From NCBI GenBank assembly GCA_004195035.1, contig SGBD01000001.1, positions 788,368-852,367 of the forward strand: a DNA stretch of 64,000 nucleotides, read 5' to 3'. The notes below the pieces were generated by a model that was given only the letters and a program-made list of their open reading frames with translations, had not been told where the DNA came from and ran no database searches. Origin of the DNA: Candidatus Acidulodesulfobacterium ferriphilum. Lineage in GTDB: Bacteria > SZUA-79 > Acidulodesulfobacterales > Acidulodesulfobacteraceae. Positions 12,385 to 33,280 of this stretch are shown here, in pieces (position 1 is the stretch's first letter; each line of letters opens with the position of its first letter). Both the position numbers and the translations under genes were made by a program.

Positions 12385-14409
12385 TTATGCCTTTCCTACC
12401 TCAGGAAAATCTTTAAATCTTTCGTGCAATGACGGTTTTCCGCTGAGCCTGTTCGGTTTAATCGGCCTTGAACGGTAACCCGGAACTTTTTCTACTATCA
12501 TTCTGCCGCGCATTTCAAGATGAAGGGCGTGACAGAATATAGTGCAGTAATACCAGTAAACGCCTGCCCTGTCTGCGGTAAACGTAACCTCTTTGGTTTC
12601 GCCAGGGTCGATATTCACATTTTTGCCGTGCATCGTCATATTAAATCCGTGGGCAAGATTTTCGACCGTATCGTTATTCGAATAAATAACGGTTACAAGG
12701 TCGCCCTCTTTGACATGGAAATAGACTGGGGTCAAGATTGGCGCAACACCTGTTAGTCTTACGATAACCCTGTGAGGCCCGATGCGTTTTACGCCTTCTG
12801 TGCCGGCTGCAATATGGTTGGCAAAATATTTCGGGTCGTAAGTCTTTTTCACATATTTTATCCTGTCGGCAAGGGCTATCGTAGCCTGATGAGGTTCTAT
12901 ATAAACGGGATTATCTGACACTAAAACCATTTTATGACCGGATATATCGATTAACTGGTCGTTTTCGGGGAACCGGGGTCCGACAGGGAGAAATCTGTCC
13001 TTTGAAAATTTATTTAAGCTGACAAGCCATTCTCCCGTGGGGTGGTTTGTATCGCTCTGTGTTGCCGCATTATGCCCGGGCTGATATTGAACATCAAGTT
13101 TTTGTACTATCGGCTTGACTTTTTTATCCCCGTTATAAGCCTTAATTGCATCCTCGATGTTCCACTTGACCATCTGCGAATCGACGAAAAGGGTCGTGTA
13201 GGCATTGCCTCTGCCGTCGTAAACGGTGTGTAACGGACCAACCCCGACCGTAAGAATGGCGGCAACGGCATCTTTAGGTTTTAATTTTTTCTCGAAAACC
13301 TGACCTACTTTTTCTAGGTCTATAACGGTAACCTTTGGAGCGAGCTTGCCGTTCGCAACGAAATATTTTCCATCCGGCGTAGGCGATATTCCGTGAGGGT
13401 CCTTTTCTACCGGAATATAAGCGGTTAAATCCGAACCGTGTCTGCCGTCGAGAACGGGAACCGAAGATTTTCCGATAGTTTTATATTTTCCGGCTTTGAT
13501 TGCGGCTTCAACCCTCTGGATATTGACAAAAACAGCCCACATTACAGGGGGTTTTGTCATTGTAGAAACATCCCATCCTTTATCTGCATTGTAGCATGTA
13601 GCTGCTACATAAAGCCCCTTATAGTCGGTGGTCATGTTATCCTGGTTGCCGTCAACCATGACCTGCCATTTAACCGCCATGGTCTCTCCGTCGACAGCGC
13701 TAAGTAATGTCCAGTAATTTTTTGTCTGTGCCGCATTATTACCCGTGGGGACGATATCTCTGCCATCGTTGGGCATGGGAACTTCAAATTCGGATGCCGC
13801 AAAAACATAACCTGTTTTTGGATAGCGTTGGACGCATAAGCCATGAACGGCAGAGACATTTGGAAGAGCGGTAATTGCATCGGTTTGAAAATAATCAAGC
13901 CTTATTCTGGCAATTCTTCCTGCTGATTTATCGTTGATAAAACAATACCTGCCGTCAAAATCTCCATTAGCATAGGATATATGAGGATGATGAGTGTCGC
14001 CCTCTATATATCCTCCGGCATCCTCAAGCATTTTGGCGCTCTGGTCATCGCCGGACGGTCCGCCGTAACCCCTTCCCGTATCATTGTTAAAAACGGGTAT
14101 TCTTAGGAGCGTCTTCATCGAAGGAATACCTTTAACTCTAACCTCGCCGGACGGTCCGGCGCTCCAGAATCCCATATATTTATCCCATTTGCCGGGAGGA
14201 ACTATAGCTTTTGCGACGGCCGCGGATACGGTTGCGGTTCCCGTCGGCGCTTTTGCGCATCCCGATAACGCCTCAATTCCAGCCCCACTGCCTATAAGCC
14301 CGGCCCCTGCTGCAATTTTTGCCATTGTAGATAAAAAGCCGCGCCTCGTGGTTCCCTTTTGAATCTGTGAATCTTCTTCTTTAGTCAAATCATCTTCATT
14401 TTTTTCCAT
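12385..14409 (-). CDS. nosZ: NosZ, nitrous-oxide reductase (Tat-exported, possible lipoprotein)
   Basis: 674 residues. It reduces N2O to N2 in the periplasm. The N-terminus has a twin-arginine motif (RRGFLS, residues 22-27), a hydrophobic stretch and a lipobox-like LSGC (Cys51). CuZ ligands are visible in GDTHHPHIS, AVHGL, DPHGIS, GPLHT and EPHQAT. The C-terminal cupredoxin CuA site is C622-T-I-F-C-H-A-L-H-L-E-M. The THHPHIS block, Tat signal and NosR/ApbE partners point to clade I, but LEM and the missing Trp of the usual CSWFCHALHMEM are not typical. GAGGAGGGG lies 5 bases before the ATG. A CRP-type box and -10 hexamer lie ~190-240 bases upstream. Confidence 0.95.
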   Translation of the reverse strand: MEKNEDDLTKEEDSQIQKGTTRRGFLSTMAKIAAGAGLIGSGAGIEALSGCAKAPTGTATVSAAVAKAIVPPGKWDKYMGFWSAGPSGEVRVKGIPSMKTLLRIPVFNNDTGRGYGGPSGDDQSAKMLEDAGGYIEGDTHHPHISYANGDFDGRYCFINDKSAGRIARIRLDYFQTDAITALPNVSAVHGLCVQRYPKTGYVFAASEFEVPMPNDGRDIVPTGNNAAQTKNYWTLLSAVDGETMAVKWQVMVDGNQDNMTTDYKGLYVAATCYNADKGWDVSTMTKPPVMWAVFVNIQRVEAAIKAGKYKTIGKSSVPVLDGRHGSDLTAYIPVEKDPHGISPTPDGKYFVANGKLAPKVTVIDLEKVGQVFEKKLKPKDAVAAILTVGVGPLHTVYDGRGNAYTTLFVDSQMVKWNIEDAIKAYNGDKKVKPIVQKLDVQYQPGHNAATQSDTNHPTGEWLVSLNKFSKDRFLPVGPRFPENDQLIDISGHKMVLVSDNPVYIEPHQATIALADRIKYVKKTYDPKYFANHIAAGTEGVKRIGPHRVIVRLTGVAPILTPVYFHVKEGDLVTVIYSNNDTVENLAHGFNMTMHGKNVNIDPGETKEVTFTADRAGVYWYYCTIFCHALHLEMRGRMIVEKVPGYRSRPIKPNRLSGKPSLHERFKDFPEVGKA

Positions 14410-14938
14410 AAAAACCCCTCCTCATAGGGTATTAATAAAAGAAAAAAGTTAAATTTAAAAAATTAAAAATCAAAAAAAGACACTAAATTGAATTACTAAA
14501 CTGCGCGGTACGATTATGTGCCGAACTTAACCACCTCCATAATCTAATTTTAAATTAGAACATTGGTTTAAACTTTAATGCATTATATAACTAAGTAGAA
14601 TTATATTAATAATTATAAAAAAGTTAAAATATGACAAAAGTCACATTATATTAAATTAATGCAACCATTTTTAATGAATTAAACCGGCGTTTTGTTTTAT
14701 TATTTAATAATTATTATTATTTATTATAATTTATTATATTAATCTAAAACATTATATTTTAAATATTATCCCATTTCTTCAATTTGTCAAATTTATTATA
14801 TATATTGTTTGGTGGATAAAAATATTAATAATATTTCCATTATTAGCCCGAGAGAGTTCCTAATTTTATTAAAAGAGAAAATTTCCCCTGTTCCGATGTT
14901 TTTATGATTGCGCCGATATTGCATTAACAGGGTTTATT
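14410..14938. promoter_or_regulatory. Divergent regulatory region between nosZ and the HTH-NosL regulator
   Basis: 529 bases with no convincing gene. It is extremely AT-rich. It holds the CRP-type box at 14629-14646, a near-perfect 17-bp palindrome TCTAATTTTAAATTAGA at 14543-14559, and minus-strand -10 candidates at 14600-14608. The nosZ leader would be about 185 bases long. No clear -35/-10 pair was found for the divergent regulator. Confidence 0.6.
14629..14646 (-). promoter_or_regulatory. CRP/HcpR-type operator upstream of nosZ
   Basis: The sequence TATGAC-AAAA-GTCACA contains the inverted repeat TGAC-N4-GTCA (14632-14643). In CRP notation it is TATGA-N6-TCACA. On the minus strand TAATAT (14608-14603) begins 29.5 bases from the box centre, the class-II distance; a better hexamer TATAAT (14605-14600) lies 3 bases further. 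Similar boxes occur at ric and nor. Confidence 0.65.
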
Positions 14939-15556
14939 ATGTATAATTACCTTATGAAAAGGGTAATTAAAAATAAGGAAAAATCGAAAAAGTTCGATGA
15001 ACTTACCCAGAAAGAAAGGGTTCTGGAATTGGTGAAAAGCGGAAAATCGGATAATGTGGCGGATATAAGCAGTGTATTAAACATATCTAAGATGAGCGTT
15101 TACAGATATATCCGCGCTTTAATAGATGAGGGCAAAATTTCAAAGACTTTTAATAAACTGTATCCTTACGCCGCCCAAACCCAAGCCGATAAAAGTCCTG
15201 CCATACGCAAATGCGTTATATGTCTTAAACATATTACCGATGAAAGACTTGCCGTTGCCGTTAACCAAAAGAACGGTCAAGTGCATGAATTTTGCTGTGC
15301 CCATTGCGCCGTTTTGGGAGTGCTGCACATCATCGGCGATTTAAATGCGGTTAATTCTATAATGGGGAGGGATTTTCTATACGGAAATCCGTTAGATTTA
15401 AGAAATGCTTTCCTTTTGTTTAAAACGGATGTTATTCCATGCTGTTCCCCGCCTATTCTTGTTTTTGCGAGACAAGACGATGCGGAAAGATTCAAAAAAG
15501 GATTCGGCGGGGAGATAGTATCGTTCGACGAAATAATATCGCATATGAAATTCTAA
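14939..15556 (+). CDS. HTH regulator with a NosL/TRASH-like metal-binding domain
   Basis: 205 residues in two parts. Residues ~20-72 form a winged-helix DNA-binding domain (DeoR/HTH_11-like: AdISSVLNISKMSVYRYI region, then LIDEGKI). Residues ~90-200 resemble NosL/TRASH metal sites: C92-x2-C95, then C119-C120-x2-C123 in EFCCAHC, C168-C169, and the NosL-like tail LVFARQDDAERFKKGFGG with EIVSFDEI. It is transcribed away from nosZ and ends 4 bases from the YtkA-like gene. The domain pairing and position suggest a copper (or other soft-metal) sensing regulator of nos or copper genes. No experiment supports this; the fold call is from motif recognition. CAGGG precedes the ATG by 6 bases. Confidence 0.65.
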   Translation: MYNYLMKRVIKNKEKSKKFDELTQKERVLELVKSGKSDNVADISSVLNISKMSVYRYIRALIDEGKISKTFNKLYPYAAQTQADKSPAIRKCVICLKHITDERLAVAVNQKNGQVHEFCCAHCAVLGVLHIIGDLNAVNSIMGRDFLYGNPLDLRNAFLLFKTDVIPCCSPPILVFARQDDAERFKKGFGGEIVSFDEIISHMKF

Positions 15557-21486: not shown

Positions 21487-21930
21487 ATGAAGATTTCAAG
21501 AGCCAGCGATTATGCTATTAGAGGCTTGGTTTATATGGCAAAAAAGCCGGCAGGAAGTATATGTTTTGTAAAAGATATTGCTAAAAATACCGATTCACCC
21601 GCTTCTTTTATGTCTAAGATTTTTCAATCTCTGGCAAAAAGCGGTCTTGTACATTCTTTTATCGGAACGAAAGGCGGGTTTACGTTTAACATTCCGCCCG
21701 AAAATATTACCATAAAAATGATTGTCGAAATTATAGACGGTCCTGTTGTTTTAAATAGATGCGTCGTTAATAAATCATCCTGCCGGAATGTGGGCAATTG
21801 CGATGTGCATTTTATGTGGGCCGATATTCAAAAAATGCTCACAAAAGCCTTAAGTTCTTATTCTATTGCCGATTTTGCAAGTAATACGCATAAAAATAAG
21901 CTGTCGGAATACGATTTAAATTTTTCTTAG
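21487..21930 (+). CDS. Rrf2-family transcriptional regulator
   Basis: 147 residues. The N-terminal winged helix starts MKISRASDYAIRGLVYMA, typical of Rrf2 proteins, with GTKGGFTF for the wing. The cluster-binding loop has three cysteines, C-x6-C-x5-C, and then the conserved MWADIQ-type helix. Family members (IscR, NsrR, RsrR) carry an Fe-S cluster sensed by NO, iron or redox state. Its position next to ric and nor favours an NsrR-like NO sensor, though the three-cysteine spacing alone cannot separate NsrR from IscR. It ends 4 bases into the converging ric gene. Confidence 0.8.
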   Translation: MKISRASDYAIRGLVYMAKKPAGSICFVKDIAKNTDSPASFMSKIFQSLAKSGLVHSFIGTKGGFTFNIPPENITIKMIVEIIDGPVVLNRCVVNKSSCRNVGNCDVHFMWADIQKMLTKALSSYSIADFASNTHKNKLSEYDLNFS

Positions 21931-22616
21931 ATTTTTTTAAAAAGTATATTGTTTTCCAAATGTATATGAATCATTATGTCGTCTGAAATATTCTTTAGCA
22001 GTTTGTAAGCGTGCCTGTAAGAAGCGCAGGCATCTTCGGGACTTAAGTAGCCGGAACTTAAAAAATTCATCTCCTTAAGAATATGCCCGACATATTCGTG
22101 GTCGTATTCCGCATCGTTTATTTCTCCCATAATCCCGCCGGTTTCCTGGTTTTTTATATGCTGGAAAAGCTCCTTTTCCTCTTTATCTAAATGAATAATT
22201 AAAGCCTGCGACATTTTTATAAAAAGTTCCCTTATTCTGATAAGTTCCCGATGGCGGTCTCCGTGAACATGGGCAATCTTTTCTACATATTCCGTTGCTT
22301 CGGGAAGATGAATTCTTAAAAATGTGTGATGAATATTAACTATGTAATCGATTAAAAAATCTGTATTCCAATTGTTCGCTCTTTGATTTGAAACATAATT
22401 TTTGTCCTTCTCCAGACCGCGTTCCTTAACGGCGTTTAATTCGTTGGCGATAAATTTTTCGTCTATGCCGGATTCTTCACATGCCTCTTTTAATGTTTTA
22501 TTGCCGCCGCAGCAAAAATCGACGCCGTATTTTTTGAATACCTCTATCTTTTCAGGGTTTTCTGATGCAATTTCGCCGACGCTCCTTAAAAATAAATCAT
22601 CCGCATCTCTTCTCAT
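21927..22616 (-). CDS. ric: RIC/ScdA/YtfE-type iron-sulfur cluster repair di-iron protein
   Basis: 229 residues. The N-terminal DUF542 domain shows FKKYGVDFCCGGNKTL with the paired Cys. A hemerythrin-like domain follows with the di-iron ligands in NIHHTFLRIHLPE, HGDRHREL, HLDKEEKELF, YDHEYVG and HIHLENNILF. RIC proteins repair Fe-S clusters damaged by NO or oxidants. It is transcribed away from the cytochrome c-nor operon across a 255-base gap that holds two CRP-type boxes; AAAGGAG lies 8 bases before the ATG. The NO-reductase neighbour supports an NO-stress role. Confidence 0.9.
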   Translation of the reverse strand: MRRDADDLFLRSVGEIASENPEKIEVFKKYGVDFCCGGNKTLKEACEESGIDEKFIANELNAVKERGLEKDKNYVSNQRANNWNTDFLIDYIVNIHHTFLRIHLPEATEYVEKIAHVHGDRHRELIRIRELFIKMSQALIIHLDKEEKELFQHIKNQETGGIMGEINDAEYDHEYVGHILKEMNFLSSGYLSPEDACASYRHAYKLLKNISDDIMIHIHLENNILFKKI

Positions 22617-22687
22617 TTTTGTTTCTCCTTTTATTTACCGGTTAAATCTTATCCTAAATTTTATTATCTTAAAATTTTAACCGTTAA

Positions 22688-22707
22688 TATATGATTTTTA
22701 TCACATA
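22688..22707 (-). promoter_or_regulatory. CRP/FNR-type operator of ric
   Basis: TATATGAT-TTTT-ATCACATA: inverted repeat TGAT-N4-ATCA at 22692-22703. On the minus strand GATAAT (22668-22663, 5 of 6 to TATAAT) begins 29.5 bases from the box centre, so the box would centre at -41.5, the class-II activator position. The predicted start is near 22656. Confidence 0.7.
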
Positions 22708-22742
22708 AATAAAATAATTTTATAAAAATTAAATTATTAAAT

Positions 22743-22760
22743 TTGTGACAAAAGTCATAA
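22743..22760 (+). promoter_or_regulatory. CRP/HcpR-type operator of the cytochrome c-nor operon
   Basis: TTGTGAC-AAAA-GTCATAA with its centre at 22751.5. A perfect TATAAT occupies 22781-22786, starting 29.5 bases from the centre, so the box would sit at -41.5 for a start near 22793. No -35 hexamer is present, as expected of a class-II activated promoter. Confidence 0.75.
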
Positions 22761-22871
22761 CATTTATTTTTTATATTTTTTATAATCAGGGAAACTTGAA
22801 TTGTCGCTGCATTATTGTCGGGTTTAAATTCAAATTAATTTATAATACTATTTTATTTTTTAGCAAAAAAA

Positions 22872-23294
22872 ATGATTATGCCAAAGAATAATAAAAATAT
22901 TATTAAAATAGGTATTTTCGTTTCCCTCGGACTTATTCTCATTTTAGCCGTACCTGTTTTAGCCTTATTGGTTTTTATGAAAACCTCTAACGGAAGCAAT
23001 TTAAAAAACCTTAAAACTAAAAACGGCAGAGCTATATTTTATAATTTAGGGTGTGTCAAATGTCATAACATAAGGGCTTTAAATATTAAAGGGGGACATG
23101 TCGGCCCCGACCTTTCAGGTGCGTATTCCAATGTCGAAAAAGTTTACAGAAAAAGCCTGAACGATTTTTTGAAAAATCCGGCCGGAACGATGTATTTTAT
23201 TTTGATGTTTAATCATCTGAGCAAAGAAAATAGAAAAATTATAATAGCCGAATTAAAAAAGGCGCAAACGATAGAAAATAAAAATAAAAAATAA
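22872..23294 (+). CDS. Membrane-anchored monohaem cytochrome c next to NO reductase (NorC-like position)
   Basis: 140 residues: one N-terminal anchor helix (~residues 10-33), a single CVKCH haem site near residue 57, GPDLSGAY typical of class-I cytochromes c, and a possible axial Met in GTMYF or ILMF. It is followed 14 bases downstream by a quinol-type NO reductase. In cNor systems NorC plays this part, but the large subunit here already carries the qNor N-terminal extension, so the cytochrome may be an extra donor or an ancestral remnant. No strong ribosome-binding site is visible before the first ATG; a second ATG two codons later is possible. Confidence 0.7.
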   Translation: MIMPKNNKNIIKIGIFVSLGLILILAVPVLALLVFMKTSNGSNLKNLKTKNGRAIFYNLGCVKCHNIRALNIKGGHVGPDLSGAYSNVEKVYRKSLNDFLKNPAGTMYFILMFNHLSKENRKIIIAELKKAQTIENKNKK

Positions 23295-23308
23295 AAGGAG
23301 GAGTGTTT

Positions 23309-25588
23309 ATGAGCAAAAGCATTTATTATGATGAAAAATCGGTAAACAAATTTTTAAAGATCACGTTATCGCTTACGATTATAGTTCTTGTCGCCATATT
23401 GGTTTACGGAACGTTTAAGGTATATTACGGCGCTCCGCCAATACCTGGACAGGTAATAAGCGCTAAGGGTAAGACCCTTTTTACGGGACAGGATATCGTT
23501 GCAGGCAAAGCAAGGTTTCAGGAATTCGACCTGATGGATTATGGCAGTATTTACGGGAACGGCGCATATTTCGGGCCGGATTTTACCGACCAGTATCTTC
23601 ACAGGGAGGTTAAATATTACCGCGATTTCGAGTCGCAAAAACTTTATAAAAAGCCTTATAACCAAATTTCCCCGCGTGACAGGGATTATATAAAATCACT
23701 TGTAATATCAAAGATAAAGAAAAATAGATTTTCTTCGGCAGGAAATGTTCTCACATACACTCCGGGCGAGATATATGCCTTCGACAAAATTCAAAAAAGG
23801 ATTGAAAATCTTTATACGAACGGCAATCCCAAATTGGGAATCGGTAAAGATTTAGTTCCTTCAAAATATGATATAAAAAGAATAGTCGAATTTTATTCAT
23901 GGGCGGCATGGAGCGCGGGAACGTTAAGGCCGGGCGTTGACCATACTTACACCAATAATTGGCCGTATAACAGAGGGGCGGGCAATGTTCCGCCGACTTA
24001 TCTCTATACTTGGACATTTGCTTCCATAGCCGTTTTTATTGCATTAGCAGGACTTGTCATCTGGTTTTTCCTTACCTATATTTCTCCCGGCTGGCAGGAG
24101 GCTCCGGCAATGCTTGATAACTGGAAGCCGATGGAAGACTTGGGCAATTTTAAAATCACTCATTCAATGAAAAAAGCAGGCAAATATTTTTTCTTAGGCG
24201 CTTTCTTATTAGGTTTGCAAATAATAGCAGGTATGCTTTTAGCTCACTATTATGCCGAAAGGTCTTCATTTTTTGGCATAAATACCCTTACGATACTTCC
24301 TTTTAATATCGTTAAATCATGGCACATCCAGCTTGCAATTCTTTTCATCGCTTCGATGTGGCTCGGCGCAGGCATATTTGTTTCGAAATATATAGGCGGC
24401 GGAAAAGAACCTAAATGGCAATCCTTTCTCATTGATTTTCTATGGTGGGCATTATTAATCGACGGGGTTGCAGCCCTTATAGGAATGTATCTTGGCGCAA
24501 AAGGCTATTTTCACAAAGGTCTATGGTTTTTTATCGGCAATCAGGGTCTTGAATATTTACAATTAGGCAGACTTAATCAGATTATAGTGTTTGTCGGTCT
24601 GTTACTCTGGGTTGTTATACTTTACAGGGCATTAAAACCTAATTTTATAAAAAATACCGATAAATGGAGCGTTGAATGGCTCCTTTTAATCAGCGCGTCA
24701 ACTATCGGCTTAATGTATGTGTTTGGGATGTTTCCTTTAGCGTGGATTCTCAAAAACTGGACGATTACCGATTTTTGGAGATGGTGGGTCGTTCATCTAT
24801 GGGTTGAGGGGACATTTGAATTCTTTGCGGTTGTGGTTATAGGTTATTTCTTTCTTGCTCAGGGTCTCGTAAAAAGACAGACAATCGAAAACACCCTGCT
24901 TCTTGAAATACTCCTTATATTTTTGGGAGGAATTATCGGAACGGGGCATCATTTTTATTTTATCGGCGATGCCTCGATATGGATAGCTCTCGGTTCGATG
25001 TTTTCGTTTCTTGAGGTTATCCCGCTTTTACTTTTAACAATGCAGGCTGTTTATGAAAAAAATGTTTTAGTAAAGGCAGGGAAAGAATTTCCGCAGGATT
25101 TGTCGTTTAAATATTTAGAGGCTTCGACATTCTGGAACTTCGTCGGCGCCGGTGTTTTCGGGTCATTAATCAACACCCCGCTTATGAATTATTACGAACA
25201 TGGTCAGTATCTGACGATAAACCATGGACATACGGCTTTATTCGGCGTCTTTGGCCTTTTAGGAATTGCCTTAAGCTATTATGTCCTGAGGATGATTGTC
25301 GAACCTTCTAAATGGAGCGATAAAGCCGGTAGAATAGCTTTGTGGTGCTTTAATGCAGGTATGATTCTATGGGTGATTTTAAATTTTCTGCCGGAAGGAT
25401 TTATGCAGTTTGCGGCATCCGTAAAACACGGTTACTGGTATTCGAGAAGCATTTACTTTTATGATAAGACCGACATGTGGCTGTGGTTAAGATCGCCCGG
25501 AGACCTTGTATTTACGATAGGCGTTCTGGTTCTTTTTATAGATATAACAATAAAACTTCTACAGGTTAAAAAATCGGTAAAAGAATAA
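23309..25588 (+). CDS. norZ: Quinol-type nitric-oxide reductase (qNor, NorZ)
   Basis: 759 residues. An N-terminal helix and a long periplasmic domain (GKARFQEFDLMDYGS, the qNor NorC-like extension without a haem site) lead into a 12-14 helix NorB core. The haem and FeB ligands lie in KSWHIQLAI, VHLWVEGTFEF, GTGHHFYFIG and NHGHTALFG; the Glu residues of VEGTFE are characteristic of NO reductases as opposed to oxidases. It reduces 2 NO to N2O using quinol, supplying the nos system. AGGAGGAG lies 5 bases before ATG 23309; a GTG 6 bases earlier overlaps that site. Transcription probably starts upstream of the small cytochrome gene. Confidence 0.93.
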   Translation: MSKSIYYDEKSVNKFLKITLSLTIIVLVAILVYGTFKVYYGAPPIPGQVISAKGKTLFTGQDIVAGKARFQEFDLMDYGSIYGNGAYFGPDFTDQYLHREVKYYRDFESQKLYKKPYNQISPRDRDYIKSLVISKIKKNRFSSAGNVLTYTPGEIYAFDKIQKRIENLYTNGNPKLGIGKDLVPSKYDIKRIVEFYSWAAWSAGTLRPGVDHTYTNNWPYNRGAGNVPPTYLYTWTFASIAVFIALAGLVIWFFLTYISPGWQEAPAMLDNWKPMEDLGNFKITHSMKKAGKYFFLGAFLLGLQIIAGMLLAHYYAERSSFFGINTLTILPFNIVKSWHIQLAILFIASMWLGAGIFVSKYIGGGKEPKWQSFLIDFLWWALLIDGVAALIGMYLGAKGYFHKGLWFFIGNQGLEYLQLGRLNQIIVFVGLLLWVVILYRALKPNFIKNTDKWSVEWLLLISASTIGLMYVFGMFPLAWILKNWTITDFWRWWVVHLWVEGTFEFFAVVVIGYFFLAQGLVKRQTIENTLLLEILLIFLGGIIGTGHHFYFIGDASIWIALGSMFSFLEVIPLLLLTMQAVYEKNVLVKAGKEFPQDLSFKYLEASTFWNFVGAGVFGSLINTPLMNYYEHGQYLTINHGHTALFGVFGLLGIALSYYVLRMIVEPSKWSDKAGRIALWCFNAGMILWVILNFLPEGFMQFAASVKHGYWYSRSIYFYDKTDMWLWLRSPGDLVFTIGVLVLFIDITIKLLQVKKSVKE

Positions 25589-25888: not shown

Positions 25889-26848
25889 ATGAACATCTTT
25901 TTAAATTCAACCGTCTTTCAAATCTTTCAGGTTATAACCGTCCTTGGTTTTTCCCCGTTTATTGCGGGCTTTATCGGCAAGATAGAGGAGATTTTTGAGG
26001 GGAAGAAGGGACCTTCGGTTTTTCAGCCTTATTACGATATTCATAAACTATTCCAAAAAGAGATATTGATACCGCCTTCCGCCTCGTTTATTTTTAAGTC
26101 AGCCCCGTTCGTTTCTTTTATTTCGATGGTGCTTATTACCCTTCTTATTCCTGTTTTAACCGCATATCCGCTTCCCCTTGGATTTATGGGCGATATGCTC
26201 GGAGGGGCATTTCTTTTTTCCCTTTCATCATTTTTTATAAACATTGCTTCCCTTGATTTGGGTACAAGCTATGGGGGGCTGGGTTCGTCCCGCGCCACCC
26301 TTCTCGCGATTCTTTCCGAGCCTACCCTTATTCTCGTTTTTGTGGGCGTAGCTTTAATAGCACAATCCACACTGCCTTATGTGATGCTGCGTACTATAAC
26401 CGCATCATTGCCTTTTTATTTTAGTCCGCCCCATTTCTTAATTATAGCCGCATTTTTTCTCTTATTTCTGGCGGATACGGATAGAAGGCCTATTAACGCC
26501 TCAACTCATGCCGAGATGAGCATGATTGAAGAGGCAAGAATTTTGGATTATTCAGGTCCATATTTAGCTCTTTTAAAATGGTCAGGGTATATGAAACAAT
26601 TTTTACTTTTGGTGATTTTTTTGAATGTACTGGTTTTTCCATGGGGGCTATCCATTAATCATAGTCTCGCAGGTCTTATTATTGCTGTAATCAGTCTTAT
26701 TTTAAAAATGTTAATTGTGGGATTCATAGCCGGAATTATAGATACCGCTATTTCAAGATTGAGATTCTTCAGGTATCAGGAGTATTTTGCCGCCGCATTC
26801 GTTTTAAGCGTTCTTGCGATAATGACATTTCAATATAAGGGTTTTTAA
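25889..26848 (+). CDS. HyfC/HycD/NuoH-like membrane subunit of a complex-I-related complex
   Basis: 319 residues and eight or so helices. The conserved NuoH/HyfC features are present: an N-terminal helix, then a cytoplasmic loop GKIEEIFEGKKGPSVFQPYYD and IHKLFQKE, and later DTDRRPINASTHAEMSMIEE with its acidic residues at the quinone-side loop. In this family the subunit anchors the hydrophilic arm and couples electron transfer to ion movement. It opens a six-gene run (HyfC-, HyfE-, HyfF-, HyfG-, HyfHI-, HyfB-like) in one direction with short gaps. Confidence 0.85.
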   Translation: MNIFLNSTVFQIFQVITVLGFSPFIAGFIGKIEEIFEGKKGPSVFQPYYDIHKLFQKEILIPPSASFIFKSAPFVSFISMVLITLLIPVLTAYPLPLGFMGDMLGGAFLFSLSSFFINIASLDLGTSYGGLGSSRATLLAILSEPTLILVFVGVALIAQSTLPYVMLRTITASLPFYFSPPHFLIIAAFFLLFLADTDRRPINASTHAEMSMIEEARILDYSGPYLALLKWSGYMKQFLLLVIFLNVLVFPWGLSINHSLAGLIIAVISLILKMLIVGFIAGIIDTAISRLRFFRYQEYFAAAFVLSVLAIMTFQYKGF

Positions 26849-26883
26849 ATTATTTAAATATTAAAATTCTGGAGCAATCAAAT

Positions 26884-27558
26884 ATGCTGGGATATGTAAT
26901 GCCGCTTTATGTTTATGTCATAGAAGACCTTTTGGCTGCATTGATTCTTTTATCGTCTTTTGTGATGCTTAGCTCAAGATGGATATCTTTTTATATCCAT
27001 GCCTACGGATTTCAATCGTTTTTAATATTTATTTTAACGCTCGTTTTAGGAATCGAATCGCAAAATATAGATTTATACTTTGTTGCATTTTTAACCTTAT
27101 TTGTCAGGACAATCATAGTGCCTTACATACTTTTAAAAATGATTAAAAAATTCAATATTAAAGAAGAAGTAAAACTTATTATAAAGATACCGCTTTCAAT
27201 TATCTCTGGACTATTACTGACGGTTTTTGCCTATTTTTTGATATACAGGTTGATTTCTCCTTTTTCGCCTAAAATAGTTATTAATGCCTCGTCTATTGCT
27301 TTAAGTCTTATATTTATAGGTTTTTTTATGATTATATCGAGGTTTACGACGATAACCCATATATTAGGATTACTTGTTATAGAAAACGGAATATTTCTTT
27401 TATCCGTCGTCGTAGTTCCGACTCTTCCGATAATCGTAGAATTGGTGGTTTTGTTCGATATTTTGGTTACCGTTGTGGCAATGCTGATTCTATCGATGTT
27501 TATGAAGATGCAGACAGGTTCTTTTTCCACAACCATGCTAAATAGATTAGTCGGGTAA
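26884..27558 (+). CDS. HyfE-like (NuoK-related) membrane subunit
   Basis: 224 residues, about seven helices. It matches HyfE of hydrogenase-4-type complexes, with a C-terminal half related to NuoK (FTTITHILGLLVIENGIFL, then VELVVLFDILVTVVAM, Glu residues in the membrane). It stands between the HyfC- and HyfF-like genes, 5 bases before the latter. Role: membrane arm of the ion-pumping module. Confidence 0.8.
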   Translation: MLGYVMPLYVYVIEDLLAALILLSSFVMLSSRWISFYIHAYGFQSFLIFILTLVLGIESQNIDLYFVAFLTLFVRTIIVPYILLKMIKKFNIKEEVKLIIKIPLSIISGLLLTVFAYFLIYRLISPFSPKIVINASSIALSLIFIGFFMIISRFTTITHILGLLVIENGIFLLSVVVVPTLPIIVELVVLFDILVTVVAMLILSMFMKMQTGSFSTTMLNRLVG

Positions 27559-27563
27559 AATAT

Positions 27564-29039
27564 ATGAATATTTTCATTATTACATTTTTGATAATCCCCT
27601 TATTTGCATCCTTAAGTTCTTTTATTATAAAAAATAATAGATTTGCCGAATATATAAGCCTTTTGTCCTCATCCTTATGCCTGATTGGCGCATTTATTAT
27701 TCTTTATTTTTTAATAAGCCTTAAAGCTATTTCTATTTTTAACAGTGCAATAGTAATAGATAAGTTTGGCGCTTATATAATCCTGTTGGTTAGTATCGTA
27801 TATTTTTTATCGTCGATGTATTCTATTTCATATATGAGGCTTGCAATGGAAGACGAGCAGATGACGGATAGGGAGTTTAACAGGTATTATCTTTTTTTGA
27901 ATCTTTTTGCTTTGACGATGCTTATCGCTCCAATGATTAACAATATGGCGGTTTACCTGATAGACATAGAACTTACCACGGTAGCAAGCGCTTTTTTGGT
28001 TATTGCGGAGGTTACGGAAAAATCGATAGAAGCGGCATGGAAGTACATCCTGATAGTTTCTTCGGGAATCTCGCTTGCCCTTTTAGGCACGATACTATTT
28101 TATCTTTCGGGAAATATTCCCGGAAGCGCAAATGCCGTTTCATCTTTAGACTGGACAACTTTACGCTTGAATGCCGTTTATCTTAATAAAGATATAGTAA
28201 GGTTTGCATTTGTTTTAATCGTGATAGGTTTAGGTACCAAAGTCGGTCTTGCTCCAATGCATACATGGCTTCCCGATGCCCATTCGGAAGCGCCTTCCCC
28301 TATTTCAAGCATGCTTTCGGCATCTCTTTTAAATACGGCAATATACGGCATAATGAGGTATTTTAGTATTACGGGGAAAAATCTTGGATTTAATTATCCG
28401 AACACAATAATGGTTATTATAGGTCTTTTTACAATATTTACAGGGGTAATGGGAATTATTAATCAAAAATCGACAAAAAGGCTTTTTGCATATTCGAGTA
28501 TCGAACATATGGGAATAATTAGTTTAGGGTTTGGTCTGGGGGGCGTATTTGGAACTTTTGGCGCCCTTTTGCAGATGTTCGGTCACAGCCTTGCAAAACC
28601 TGTCATGTTTTTTGGTTCCGGAAATTTGCTGCACAAGTATAAAACGAAGGATATTAAAAAAATTAAAGGCGTTTTTTATGTTATGCCTAAAACCGCTTTT
28701 TTATTTTCCATTGGCGTGCTTGCATTAACCGGGTCTCCGCCTTCGGTAACCTTTATAAGCGAATTTTTAATTATACTTCAAAGTTTAAAAAACGGCTATT
28801 ATGTAGTAACGATAATGCTTATAAGTCTTTTAATTGCGGCATTTGTTAGTTTATTGGCAAAAGTCGGCTCTATTGTTTTCGGAAAAAAAGATAATGATTT
28901 AAATATTAAAAAGGGCGATTTTGGGCTCTCATCTTATTTGCCCATGGCTCTGCCGCTTGCGGCATTGATAATTTTAGGGTTTTATATACCGGGAAACCTG
29001 CATAGTTTATTGCTGGATATAGTTCAGATAATTAGATAA
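27564..29039 (+). CDS. HyfF-like proton/sodium-antiporter-type subunit
   Basis: 491 residues and about 14 helices of the NuoL/M/N (Mrp antiporter) family. Key residues are visible: the membrane Glu in YLIDIELTTVASA, GTKVGLAPMHTWLPDAHSEAPSPIS with the conserved Lys and the His/Asp/Glu motif, STKRLFAYSSIEHMG, and a Lys in LAKPVMFFGSG. This is one of two antiporter-like subunits in the complex and would translocate ions. It lies 28 bases before the large-subunit gene. Confidence 0.85.
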   Translation: MNIFIITFLIIPLFASLSSFIIKNNRFAEYISLLSSSLCLIGAFIILYFLISLKAISIFNSAIVIDKFGAYIILLVSIVYFLSSMYSISYMRLAMEDEQMTDREFNRYYLFLNLFALTMLIAPMINNMAVYLIDIELTTVASAFLVIAEVTEKSIEAAWKYILIVSSGISLALLGTILFYLSGNIPGSANAVSSLDWTTLRLNAVYLNKDIVRFAFVLIVIGLGTKVGLAPMHTWLPDAHSEAPSPISSMLSASLLNTAIYGIMRYFSITGKNLGFNYPNTIMVIIGLFTIFTGVMGIINQKSTKRLFAYSSIEHMGIISLGFGLGGVFGTFGALLQMFGHSLAKPVMFFGSGNLLHKYKTKDIKKIKGVFYVMPKTAFLFSIGVLALTGSPPSVTFISEFLIILQSLKNGYYVVTIMLISLLIAAFVSLLAKVGSIVFGKKDNDLNIKKGDFGLSSYLPMALPLAALIILGFYIPGNLHSLLLDIVQIIR

Positions 29040-29067
29040 ATAAAAATAATAATATTTAAAGACCATT

Positions 29068-30231
29068 ATGCCGCATAGTAAATATAAATTTCTGGGAGAT
29101 TACGAATTTATCTGGGGTCCGGTGAGAAAAGGCGTCTCCGAATCTATTTTATATGAATTTTTGTCATCGGGGGAAGAGCTTCATAATTTGGATATAACAT
29201 CCGGATATAAACAAAGGGATGCAGGGAATGTCCTTGCTGAAAAGGGTAATTTATACGAACAGGTTTTAGCCATAGAAAGAATATCGGGACTCCATGCCTT
29301 TAGCTCGTCGCTTAGTTATTGCCTTAGCGTTGAAAACTTTTTTGGGCTTGCGGATAAAATTCATAAAAACCTGCAAATCTTACGGATGTTTTTTGCGGAA
29401 GTGGAAAGAATTAGGAATCACATAGAAAACTTATCCGAAATAGCGGAATCAACCTATATTCAGGTACCCTCAGCCATGTATTCTTATTATGCCGAGATGT
29501 TAAAGCAACTATCTTTGAAATTTTTAAGTTCCCGTTATTTAATGGGCATCAATACAATAGGAGGAATTAGAAAAAATTTATCGTTGAATGATATAGAATT
29601 TATTTTCAATTCGGTTAAGCCTGTTGTGAGCCGCGTTCAGGAAATCATTAAAAAAAATATGGAGACCAAGTCCCATATAGATAGGCTAAAAACCACGGGG
29701 AAAATAGATATGAAAACGGCGAAGCGGTTTTGCGCAAAGGGTGTTGCCGCAAAAAGCGCAGGAATAAATTCGGATTTAAGAATTAAAAGACCTTATCTTT
29801 TGTACGGCGATATAAAACTAAATAGTATTATATTTAATGACGGCGATGCATTTTCAAGGTATATGGTCAGGATAGGAGAGATCACTCAATCATTAAGGAT
29901 ACTTGATTATTGTTTAGAAATGCTTAAAAAAAATAGATTTAATAACACTTCGGATTATTTCATAAACAGGGATGAAATAGACAGGCTAAAAGATTCTGGA
30001 CCTGAAAATAATAAAAAAAGGCATGGATTCGGTTATGCGGAATCTTCCGAGGGGTCAATTTTCTGTTATATAAAAGATTTTGACGGATGCGTTTTTAAGA
30101 AAATAAATTTAAAATACCCGTTTGAAAATAATTATAAATTATTTGCCTGCGGAGTTAAAAATACTATGATGATGGATTTTAACATTAACGAAACGAGTTA
30201 TAACTTTTCGGTTGCGGCGCTGGATAAATAA
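29068..30231 (+). CDS. HyfG/NuoD-like large subunit lacking nickel ligands (Ehr-like)
   Basis: 387 residues of the [NiFe]-hydrogenase large subunit/NuoD fold. The N-terminal ERICGxC motif of group-4 hydrogenases is here ERISGLH, and the C-terminal DPCxxC is absent; the protein ends DFNINETSYNFSVAALDK without cysteine. It therefore cannot hold a NiFe centre. The ~150-residue NuoC-like domain found at the start of classical HyfG is also missing. This fits energy-converting-hydrogenase-related (Ehr) complexes, where an unknown reaction replaces H2 chemistry. No hydrogenase maturation genes occur in the window. Confidence 0.75.
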   Translation: MPHSKYKFLGDYEFIWGPVRKGVSESILYEFLSSGEELHNLDITSGYKQRDAGNVLAEKGNLYEQVLAIERISGLHAFSSSLSYCLSVENFFGLADKIHKNLQILRMFFAEVERIRNHIENLSEIAESTYIQVPSAMYSYYAEMLKQLSLKFLSSRYLMGINTIGGIRKNLSLNDIEFIFNSVKPVVSRVQEIIKKNMETKSHIDRLKTTGKIDMKTAKRFCAKGVAAKSAGINSDLRIKRPYLLYGDIKLNSIIFNDGDAFSRYMVRIGEITQSLRILDYCLEMLKKNRFNNTSDYFINRDEIDRLKDSGPENNKKRHGFGYAESSEGSIFCYIKDFDGCVFKKINLKYPFENNYKLFACGVKNTMMMDFNINETSYNFSVAALDK

Positions 30232-30272
30232 TTGAAAAATCAAAATATTTTTTAATAAAGGATTGAAGTATA

Positions 30273-31124
30273 ATGGCTTTCTGGACATATAGCGGATTGA
30301 AATTTGGAATAAAATCTGTAAAATTTCCGAAGGAAAACGATTTTTACGATGGTTTTATCTCATCCATAAAAATCAACGGGCAAAAGTGTCTAAATCAAGA
30401 CAAAACGGCCGGTTTATCAGGGAAAAGCGACGGGTTGCAGTGCAGAAAATGCGAGCTTGTCTGTCCGACTAAAGCGGTTAACCTGAATAATTTAGCAGAC
30501 GGCGAAAACGGGAAGGGCGGGCAGGCATTAAAAGCGATTGATGCGAACAGATGTATCTTCTGCGGATTATGCATTGACGCTTGCAGCGATATTGCGGGCG
30601 CAATTTATTATAGCAATGATTTTGATTTCGATATAGCCCCTTCACCCTGTGCAGGCAAGATAAAAGCCTTTAAAAAATCTCTATTTGTAAAGCATATAGA
30701 TACAGGGTCTTGCGGGGCATGCGAGTCGGAAATTAATGCGTTGAACAATCCGTATTACAATATGCACAGGCTTGGTATTTTTATAACGCCGAGTCCCCGG
30801 TTTGCCGATGTGTTATTGGTTACAGGAACTTTCACTAAAAAGATGTCCGATATATTTTTTAATGTTTTGGACAATATTCCAAAACCGAGATATGTTGTTC
30901 TAATCGGCTCCTGTTCCCTGACCGGCGGCGTATTCGAGAGGTCGGAAGCCGATGAAGACGGTTTTAATACAGGGTTATTAAACAGTACGGAAACTAAAGA
31001 GGGGACGGATTTAAATCCGTCCCCTCTGCTGAACGAAAATGTTATTGCTTTGCCTCACTGTCCGCCTAATCCATTCGAAATATTAAATGTTTTATTGCTA
31101 ATCAAAAAGGGTGATTTCAAATGA
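30273..31124 (+). CDS. Fused HyfH-HyfI-like subunit: ferredoxin domain plus NuoB-like domain
   Basis: 283 residues. The N-terminal half has two 4Fe-4S sites: QCRKCELVCPTKAV (with a fourth Cys 18 residues before, in GQKCLN) and RCIFCGLCIDACS. The C-terminal half is the NuoB/HyfI small subunit with the proximal-cluster cysteines SCGACE, GSCSLTGG and PHCPP. In classical Hyf these are two proteins. The join places a three-cluster relay in one chain next to the nickel-free large subunit. A 30-bp palindrome at 30998-31027 is read in frame between GSCSLTGG and PHCPP. The stop overlaps the next start (ATGA). Confidence 0.8.
   Translation: MAFWTYSGLKFGIKSVKFPKENDFYDGFISSIKINGQKCLNQDKTAGLSGKSDGLQCRKCELVCPTKAVNLNNLADGENGKGGQALKAIDANRCIFCGLCIDACSDIAGAIYYSNDFDFDIAPSPCAGKIKAFKKSLFVKHIDTGSCGACESEINALNNPYYNMHRLGIFITPSPRFADVLLVTGTFTKKMSDIFFNVLDNIPKPRYVVLIGSCSLTGGVFERSEADEDGFNTGLLNSTETKEGTDLNPSPLLNENVIALPHCPPNPFEILNVLLLIKKGDFK
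30998..31027. repeat. Perfect 30-bp palindrome inside the HyfHI-like gene
   Basis: AGAGGGGACGGATTT followed by its exact reverse complement. It is read in frame as part of KEGTDLNPSPL, a loop before the last cluster cysteine. It shares the GGGGACxGATTTAAATCxGxCCCC core with the palindrome at 31217-31240 and more loosely with the one at 60227-60250. Confidence 0.85.
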
Positions 31125-33280
31125 ATTTAAGCCTCTTAAATCCTTTAAATTATTATTACTTATTCTTAATTTTTTCTGCGGCAGGGATATTAGTTTCGTT
31201 TTTAGGTTTGATATTCGGGGACAGATTTAAATCTGCCCCCTTTAAAATGTTTTTCGCTTTTTCAAACATTCTTTACATGGCGGCTTCTTTAACGGCAGTT
31301 TCATTTTCTGTAATTGCATTTTTTAAAGGCGGAAATATATTAAACCGGATGCTCTATATCGGCAGGTTTTTTCCCGCCGGCAGAGTAATGTTGAAATTCG
31401 ATACGCTAAGCGATTTTTTTATATTATTTATTTTTGCCGTATTTTTTTACATTTCTTTATATCAGATAAGATATGTTAAAGGGTTAGATTCTGAAATAAA
31501 CCGGTCGTTATTTTCTTTTTTATACGGGATAATGCTTATAAGTGTTTATTTTGTCATCATTGCCTTTAACGGTTTTGTATTTATGATTTTTTGGGAAATA
31601 ATGGCCATATCGTCATTTTTCTTAGTAATGACCAAACATTATATAAAAGGGACAAAAAGGGCGGCATTTTTAATGGCGGTAATTACCGAAATCGGCGCAA
31701 TGTTAATAATAGTTGGATTAATGATTCTGTATTTATACTCAAACAATTTTAATCTATATGCGTTAAAAGATGCAGTAATACCCGGTTATACAAAAGAAAT
31801 AGTCTTTACCCTGTTTTTATTTGGGTTTGGGGCAAAGATGGGGATTGTTCCTTTGCATATCTGGCTTCCTGAAGCCCATCCGGCATCCCCTTCGGGAGTG
31901 TCGGGAGTTTTAAGCGGCGTGCTTACATCCTGCGGCGTTTATGGCATTATGCGGTTTGGGCTTTATGTTCTTCACCCTGCGGACAGCGCGCTGCCGATAG
32001 GGACTATGATATTAATCGTAGCCGCTTTCACGATGTTTTTTGGGGTGCTGTATATGTCTCAAACCCATGATATAAAGGTTTTGTTGTCTTATTCCACCGT
32101 AGATAACATGGGTCTTATATTAACGGGGATAGGGGCGTCCCTGTATTATAAATATTACGGATTATACGGGCTTTCCGCTTTAGCGCTGGTTGCATCTTTA
32201 TATGCGCTCATAAATCACGCATTCTTTAAAAGCCTTTTGTTTATGGGTGCAGGTAATATCGAGCATGAAACCGGAAGTCACAATATGGACGATTTTGGGG
32301 GAATTTTAAAGAGGATGCCCGTAACCGGAGCGCTTATATTTGCAGGGGTTCTTGCAGCCGCGGGGATTCCGCCGCTTAACGGGTTTGTCTCGGAATGGCT
32401 TAACCTTGAGGTGGTTTTTTTGGGTTTCCATATAAGCGGCGTTTTACCAAGAATACTTCTTTTTGGCGCAGGTTCTATTTTAGCCTTAAGCTCAGCCGTT
32501 GCAATTTCCAGTTATGTAAAATTATACGGTTTAACCTTTCTTGGTTTGCCAAGGTCTGAGAAGGCAAAAAAGGTGAAAGAGGTTCCGTTATCCATGAATA
32601 TAGCATTGATAATCCCGGTACTTTTAAGCATTTCCCTTGCCGGTTTTATGTTTCTATATACGCCTGTTTTTTCTAAGGTGGCGGAATCGATATACCGCAT
32701 AAATATCGGCAAAAACATTTTACACAATTATATTTTTATACCGTATTACAGCTCTTTTTCCGCATCAAGCCCCATATATCTGTTTTTTGTATCTATACTG
32801 CTTTTGTCAGCCCTTTATATCTTATATAAGGTTATAATAAAACCCAAAAAACGGTTTGTGGATTATGCATGGACGGGCGGTAAAAATATAATTAACCCGC
32901 ACGCTCAGGTTTCTACGCTTGGTTTTTCCAATGCTCTAAGGATAATGTTTAATCTTGTTTACGGGCAGAGAAAGAGGCTTTCGGATAGAAAAGCCTATCC
33001 GCTTTCTTATTATCACGGGGATGATTATTTAAAACAGGATAAAAAAGGCATATCCAACCCGTTCCCTTATTCATCTTATTATCACAATTCAAGCGGCTAC
33101 GGTTCCTACATATTTCCGCTTATCGAATATTATTTGTATCTGCCCTTGATAAAATTCTTCGAAAAGATAAGCTCCGTAATGACCGAATTAATGCAAAACG
33201 GGTCTTTAAATCTTTATATTTTTTATATATTTTTTGTTTTTGCGGCGGCGTTTTTTATAATTGTTCTAATTCCCGTTTAA
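31121..33280 (+). CDS. HyfB-like large antiporter-type subunit
   Basis: 719 residues and about 16-17 helices, of the NuoL/HyfB type. Visible: NGFVFMIFWEIMAISSFFLV with the membrane Glu, GFGAKMGIVPLHIWLPEAHPASPSGVSGVLSG, DIKVLLSYSTVDNMG, and a long C-terminal extension after ~residue 560 with a lateral-helix-like segment. It ends the six-gene run and starts within the stop codon of the previous gene. An in-frame palindrome lies at 31217-31240, within GDRFKSAP between the first two helices. Confidence 0.85.
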   Translation: MNLSLLNPLNYYYLFLIFSAAGILVSFLGLIFGDRFKSAPFKMFFAFSNILYMAASLTAVSFSVIAFFKGGNILNRMLYIGRFFPAGRVMLKFDTLSDFFILFIFAVFFYISLYQIRYVKGLDSEINRSLFSFLYGIMLISVYFVIIAFNGFVFMIFWEIMAISSFFLVMTKHYIKGTKRAAFLMAVITEIGAMLIIVGLMILYLYSNNFNLYALKDAVIPGYTKEIVFTLFLFGFGAKMGIVPLHIWLPEAHPASPSGVSGVLSGVLTSCGVYGIMRFGLYVLHPADSALPIGTMILIVAAFTMFFGVLYMSQTHDIKVLLSYSTVDNMGLILTGIGASLYYKYYGLYGLSALALVASLYALINHAFFKSLLFMGAGNIEHETGSHNMDDFGGILKRMPVTGALIFAGVLAAAGIPPLNGFVSEWLNLEVVFLGFHISGVLPRILLFGAGSILALSSAVAISSYVKLYGLTFLGLPRSEKAKKVKEVPLSMNIALIIPVLLSISLAGFMFLYTPVFSKVAESIYRINIGKNILHNYIFIPYYSSFSASSPIYLFFVSILLLSALYILYKVIIKPKKRFVDYAWTGGKNIINPHAQVSTLGFSNALRIMFNLVYGQRKRLSDRKAYPLSYYHGDDYLKQDKKGISNPFPYSSYYHNSSGYGSYIFPLIEYYLYLPLIKFFEKISSVMTELMQNGSLNLYIFYIFFVFAAAFFIIVLIPV
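31217..31240. repeat. Near-perfect 24-bp palindrome inside the HyfB-like gene
   Basis: GGGGACAGATTT / AAATCTGCCCCC, one mismatch. It is read in frame as GDRFKSAP in a loop after the first membrane helix. It lies 190 bases after the 30-bp palindrome and shares its core. Confidence 0.8.

Follow-up and report, generated by a model that had tools for sequence, protein, structure and literature searches.

The window analysed here, a 64,000-nucleotide stretch of the genome of Candidatus Acidulodesulfobacterium ferriphilum, carries genes for NO reduction, iron-sulphur cluster repair and N2O reduction. The ric gene (21927..22616, - strand) encodes a ScdA/YtfE-type di-iron iron-sulphur cluster repair protein (ScdA_N + Hemerythrin; TIGR03652, 213.7 bits against a cut-off of 204.7). 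Divergent to it is the nor unit, which begins with the gene for a small c-type cytochrome (22872..23294, +; PF00034) and continues with norB (23303..25588, +), encoding a NO reductase with an N-terminal NorB cytochrome c-like domain (PF22085 + PF00115). At a separate locus, nosZ (12385..14409, -) encodes a TAT-type nitrous-oxide reductase (TIGR04244, 766 bits against a cut-off of 625). The gene calls ric, nor and nosZ made in the initial annotation are thus upheld by the curated RIC and NosZ models and by the NorB domains. The closest relatives of this NorB (86-90% identity) are encoded at nine MAG loci, and the next group has acidophiles such as Acidiferrobacter among its members. The host lineage is probably from acid mine sites, and expression of norB and nosZ is reported for one member of Ca. 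Acidulodesulfobacterales (PMC6776010).

Each of the three units is preceded by a predicted Crp/Fnr-type box, at the position given in the initial annotation. The nor box (22744..22759, +; TGTGACAAAAGTCATA) is followed by a -10 hexamer TATAAT (22781..22786, +), and the ric box (22690..22705, -; TGTGATAAAAATCATA as read on the - strand) by GATAAT (22663..22668, -). Both hexamers have their first base exactly 29.5 from the box centre, as had been claimed. For the nosZ box (14630..14645, -; TGTGACTTTTGTCATA as read on the - strand) the claimed TAATAT does lie at 29.5 (14603..14608, -), but it is only a 4/6 match and a perfect TATAAT occurs three bases beyond (14600-14605, offset 32.5), which makes the register of nosZ weaker than was implied. 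The letters and places of the boxes were also given correctly, but in a notation that mixed strands and hid their common polarity: once each is written along its own direction of transcription, all three show TGTGAY as the upstream half and RTCATA as the downstream half.

The initial annotation had proposed a genome scan as a check on these boxes. The genome (1.87 Mb, 7 contigs) was scanned with a strict pattern written from the three window boxes (TRTGAYNNNNRTCAYA, TRTGAY-N4-RTCAYA), with the reversed pattern as control; a first pattern, TATGACNNNNGTCATA with three mismatches, was discarded as too loose (988 sites versus 823). The strict pattern occurs six times and the control not at all, and three of the six sites are those before nor, ric and nosZ. 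Two more, located upstream of respiratory-type genes, played no part in defining the pattern and yet show a -10 in register, namely TATAAT exactly at 29.5 before the gene for a 140-aa COX1-like protein, and TATAAC exactly at 29.5 before a CBS-domain gene that is followed by a TM_HPP gene. The sixth (C3:118213), which falls on the opening codons of a short ORF and has no -10 in register, was rejected as an operator and assigned to chance. With one mismatch allowed, there are just 52 sites versus 18 for the control, and the box alone is therefore not a safe predictor. Among the one-mismatch sites, C1:457717 and C3:140468 have a -10 in register and are kept as candidates only. The C3:140468 box (AGTGATAAATATCACA; genome G000, L090 958-2261) is flanked by a hemerythrin-DUF2249 pair on one side and a lipoyl-carrier (GcvH-like) gene on the other, and TAAAAT is found in register toward the latter.

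The register was then read across 30 genomes of the same family, where the strict pattern yields 121 sites versus 31 for the reversed control. The sites read were 88 distinct ones, comprising 60 intergenic sites and 28 that fall within ORFs of 100 aa or more, the number inside genes being what chance would give. A -10 was scored as a hexamer with at least a 5/6 match to TATAAT, the offset being measured from the box centre to the first base of the hexamer, and 30 offsets were tested. At exactly 29.5, a -10 is present in 42 of the 60 intergenic sites (12 of them perfect TATAAT); at the same 60 sites the runner-up offset reaches 18 and most offsets fewer than nine. None of the 28 coding sites and none of the 18 reversed-pattern sites (6 intergenic, 12 coding) has a -10 at 29.5. 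The binomial probability of 42 out of 60 at one offset is ∼1e-37 if the sites are independent, a figure that is too favourable, since orthologous promoters lack such independence. The box together with its -10 register, rather than the box alone, separates true sites from noise.

The 42 in-register promoters also share the polarity seen in the window, with an upstream TGTGA half (G at position 2 in 38/42) and a downstream half that is mostly TCATA (T at position 15 in 34/42); the foremost exception among strict sites is the CBS/HPP site in the window's genome. Their alignment shows no TTGACA-like consensus at 17-bp spacing, as expected since the activator would cover that place. The class-II geometry put forward in the initial annotation is strongly supported by these counts, and the distance of 29.5 from box centre to -10 identifies the promoters as predicted class-II Crp/Fnr-activated promoters.

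Eight distinct promoters of orthologous cytochrome c-norB genes, the window's own included, have the box in register. In relatives where nor lies back to back with ric (or DUF2249-ric), both boxes are kept, at box-to-box distances of 45, 46, 47, 51, 54, 57 and 60 bp. On the ric side, where the -10 hexamer is conserved in relatives, the distance from the box to its own -10 is 29.5 in all nine sequences compared; on the nor side it is 29.5 in seven of nine, with one promoter type, seen twice, slipping by one base. Because the box-to-box distance drifts and the distance from each box to its own -10 is mostly fixed, it appears to be the internal register of each promoter that is under selection, and not the gap from one box to the other. 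The ric/nor region appears to consist of two independent class-II promoters arranged back to back, a prediction with which the varying box spacing agrees.

By protein similarity, the genes behind the in-register sites form eleven groups, seven of which have more than one member; one multi-member group (two trpG-like cases) and a few single cases may be due to chance. The target groups are the ric and DUF2249-ric operons (we take DUF2249 to be COG4309 of published NO/nitrite regulons), cytochrome c-norB, hcp, nosZ, the CBS/HPP operon and the gene for the 140-aa COX1-like protein. Another group encodes a 308-aa protein, with a weakly BadF-like gene next in line, and there are also the single cases. 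In relatives, Prismane-family matches with an hcp-type N-terminus are mostly box-bearing, and no box lies within 350 bp of three 634-aa CO-dehydrogenase-like members of the same Pfam family, which gives the hcp result a built-in control. No hcp was found in the window's own genome. The nosZ gene occurs in four family genomes and has the strict box before it in three. The -10 sits at 29.5 in G002 and one base nearer to the box in G007, and that of the window is weak; the nosZ of G005 has no box upstream and instead has TTGACA-N17-TATTAT. The gene for the COX1-like protein (L034 1042-1464, -, and orthologues) starts 36-37 bases past the box in 7/7 promoters read, which places its ATG ∼3 bases from the predicted transcription start, and a leaderless mRNA is possible.

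The predicted activator is P0001 (48631..49266, +), a member of the Crp/Fnr superfamily (PF00027, 69.3 bits against a cut-off of 27.5; PF13545, 50.6 bits against a cut-off of 27) with the recognition helix TAREVVSRAL. Of the 30 family genomes, 27, the window's among them, encode P0001 or an orthologue, and the three genomes where none was found are 78-86% complete. The TAREVVSR of the helix is invariant in all 27 aligned orthologues, and the P0001 orthologue is the sole HTH_Crp_2 protein in many box-carrying relatives, several of them >95% complete; such genomes include G016, G009, G025, G011, G018, G010 and G002. In CRP numbering the helix has R180, E181 and R185. Published work ties R180/E181 to half-site bases G3/A6 (PMC1274295) and associates the R, E, R helix pattern of HcpR with TGTGA sites in Desulfovibrio (PMC5701242); the R-E-x-x-S-R of P0001 agrees with both the rule and the CRP-like box of Desulfovibrio HcpR. 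By elimination, and by the fit of its recognition helix, P0001 is almost certainly the activator that acts at the boxes.

The window's genome encodes two Crp/Fnr proteins. The second (L032 3261-4004, -, contig C7), whose gene adjoins a multihaem-cytochrome-like gene, was rejected as the factor: its helix, SRQRTTIVL, lacks R185, and several box-carrying genomes have no second HTH_Crp_2 protein. The initial annotation had proposed that nor, ric and nosZ share a single Crp/Fnr activator and had singled out the protein now called P0001. The first proposal gains strong support from the shared box and register in relatives, and the second is borne out by its being the sole Crp/Fnr protein in several of them and by the invariant helix. 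One 86% complete MAG (G027) has six sites, yet no P0001 orthologue was found in it. No strict or one-mismatch box was found within 350 bp upstream of P0001 orthologues as a sign of autoregulation, the orthologue starts at a few loci such as L052, L058 and L072 not being clean, and a single-sequence structure prediction for P0001 (mean pLDDT 37) was unusable.

Taken as a whole, we consider it very likely that the boxes are operators of P0001 and that nor, ric, nosZ and the other targets are subject to class-II activation. In this mechanism, a P0001 dimer would bind TGTGAY-N4-RTCATA with its centre at -41.5, so as to overlap the site of a -35 element, and the bound protein would recruit sigma-70 RNA polymerase to the TATAAT-type -10. 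P0001 would thereby switch on the cytochrome c-norB unit, ric, nosZ, the CBS/HPP operon and the small COX1-like protein in the window's genome, and in relatives also hcp, DUF2249 and the 308-aa protein. We infer that P0001 activates rather than represses, and the coincidence of the target set with core NO/nitrite regulons suggests that it is triggered by NO, as the initial annotation had proposed, or by a nitrosative signal.

The nature of the signal is the point at which a different reading carries some weight. P0001 may bind the boxes in response to low oxygen, redox state or a metabolite, the NO genes being part of an anaerobic programme, and we regard this as unlikely, though worth keeping in view. 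It would fit the absence of an invariant His, Met or Cys from the aligned P0001 orthologues, and FNR-type regulators likewise use class-II sites at -41.5 (PMC7713065). However, the targets nor, ric, hcp, DUF2249 and nosZ match core NO/nitrite regulons (PMC1274295), and P0001 has no cysteine at all and therefore cannot hold an FNR-type cluster. The HcpR of P. gingivalis has a haem-ligating Met68 (PMC12750200); no Met is invariant in the P0001 orthologues. With no Cys in P0001 and no invariant His or Met in its orthologues, there is no clear sign of an FNR-type cluster or of a conserved haem ligand comparable to Met68 of HcpR. A further, rather improbable idea is that these proteins constitute a Crp/Fnr subfamily of their own, one that detects nitrosative stress with no conserved His/Met/Cys ligand and reads a directional box, the polymerase-side half being systematically of the TATGA type and not the TGTGA type.

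Tail to tail with ric, and overlapping its 3' end, lies the gene for a Rrf2-family protein with a CX6CX5C motif (21487-21930, +), which is conserved beside ric in relatives (68-90% identity). This protein may provide a second regulatory input. Its three cysteines, the overlap with ric and the conserved position would also suit a scheme in which it is the NO sensor, an NsrR-like repressor of ric and nor, with the Crp/Fnr box as a secondary or general anaerobic input. We find this scheme doubtful, since the boxes have Crp/Fnr form and appear also upstream of hcp and other genes in G004, G013, G015 and G017, in none of which ric was found, and since the protein does not reach the curated NsrR and IscR cut-offs.

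Catabolite control through cAMP-CRP is very improbable. The TGTGA-N6-TCA(C/T)A spacing and half-site do fit CRP, and the best NCBIfam match of P0001 is CRP, but its score is 70.2 bits against an equivalog cut-off of 266. Moreover, in P0001 N-P-A-S-A seems to stand in place of the RS pair that CRP has in its cAMP pocket, a search of the genome for a class III cyclase found none, and the targets are NO genes. A chance origin of palindromes and TATAAT-like hexamers in AT-rich intergenic DNA, which would find some comfort in the only ∼3-fold excess of the one-mismatch pattern over its control, can be dismissed in view of the strict-site counts in the genome and the family, the single exact offset and the spread of in-register sites over several unrelated target groups.

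Read as class-II activation by P0001, the system has clear counterparts among known regulons. The HcpR regulon of Desulfovibrio (PMC1274295; HcpR1 of D. desulfuricans, PMC5701242) is likewise governed by a Crp/Fnr protein with R180, E181 and R185, its box (wTGTGA-N6-TCACAw) is CRP-like as here, and hcp is among its targets, as it is here in relatives. In other groups, dnrN (ric) and norB also come under HcpR (PMC1274295). In P0001 the HcpR-type R, E, R is found at helix positions 1, 2 and 6 and the TGTGA half-site is present, most downstream halves having A on the matching strand; control of hcp is indicated by box position, in relatives. The present system differs from HcpR in its lopsided box with an A/T spacer, in having nosZ and norB together among the targets, and in the lack of hcp in the window's genome.

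In denitrifying proteobacteria, DNR/NnrR resembles the system described here in that one Crp/Fnr activator controls both nor and nos, and P0001 has DNR among its PDB matches. The DNR box, however, is CTTGAT-N4-ATCAAG (PMC1274295), unlike the TGTGAY-N4-RTCATA found here alongside R180 in the P0001 helix. No TTGAT-type half-site is present in the three window boxes, which have G or A, not T, at the diagnostic position. The family-wide pattern gives no test of this half-site because it excludes T by design, and one relaxed site (L076) does have T there. The class-II promoters of E. coli CRP and FNR similarly have the operator at -41.5 over the -35 position, plus a -10; in contrast to these, the target set differs, the CRP equivalog score is not reached and P0001 lacks Fe-S cysteines. 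We therefore describe the regulon as a predicted class-II Crp/Fnr regulon for NO handling, of the HcpR/DNR kind.

In the literature searched on HcpR with nosZ and on the regulons of this order, we found no description of this regulon. It adds one more lineage with a Crp/Fnr NO regulon, and a lopsided variant of the box, to a regulatory logic that is itself familiar. For an uncultured lineage, it offers a testable regulatory map of NO and N2O reduction in which the protein and the exact promoters are named.

Two further gene neighbourhoods were noted. Divergent to nosZ, a gene at 14939-15556 (+) encodes a protein of 205 aa that has a helix-turn-helix at its N-terminus and a NosL-like domain at its C-terminus and may be a copper-linked regulator of nosZ; relatives are encoded in L189 (67% identity, G002, on a contig that also carries nosZ) and L270 (72%, G005). 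In one relative (L183 6373-9449), norB is followed by genes for a phosphonate-binding-type protein, a histidine kinase and a LuxR-type response regulator, and the counterpart of this region downstream of norB in the window is occupied by complex-I/hydrogenase-like membrane genes (25889-33280).
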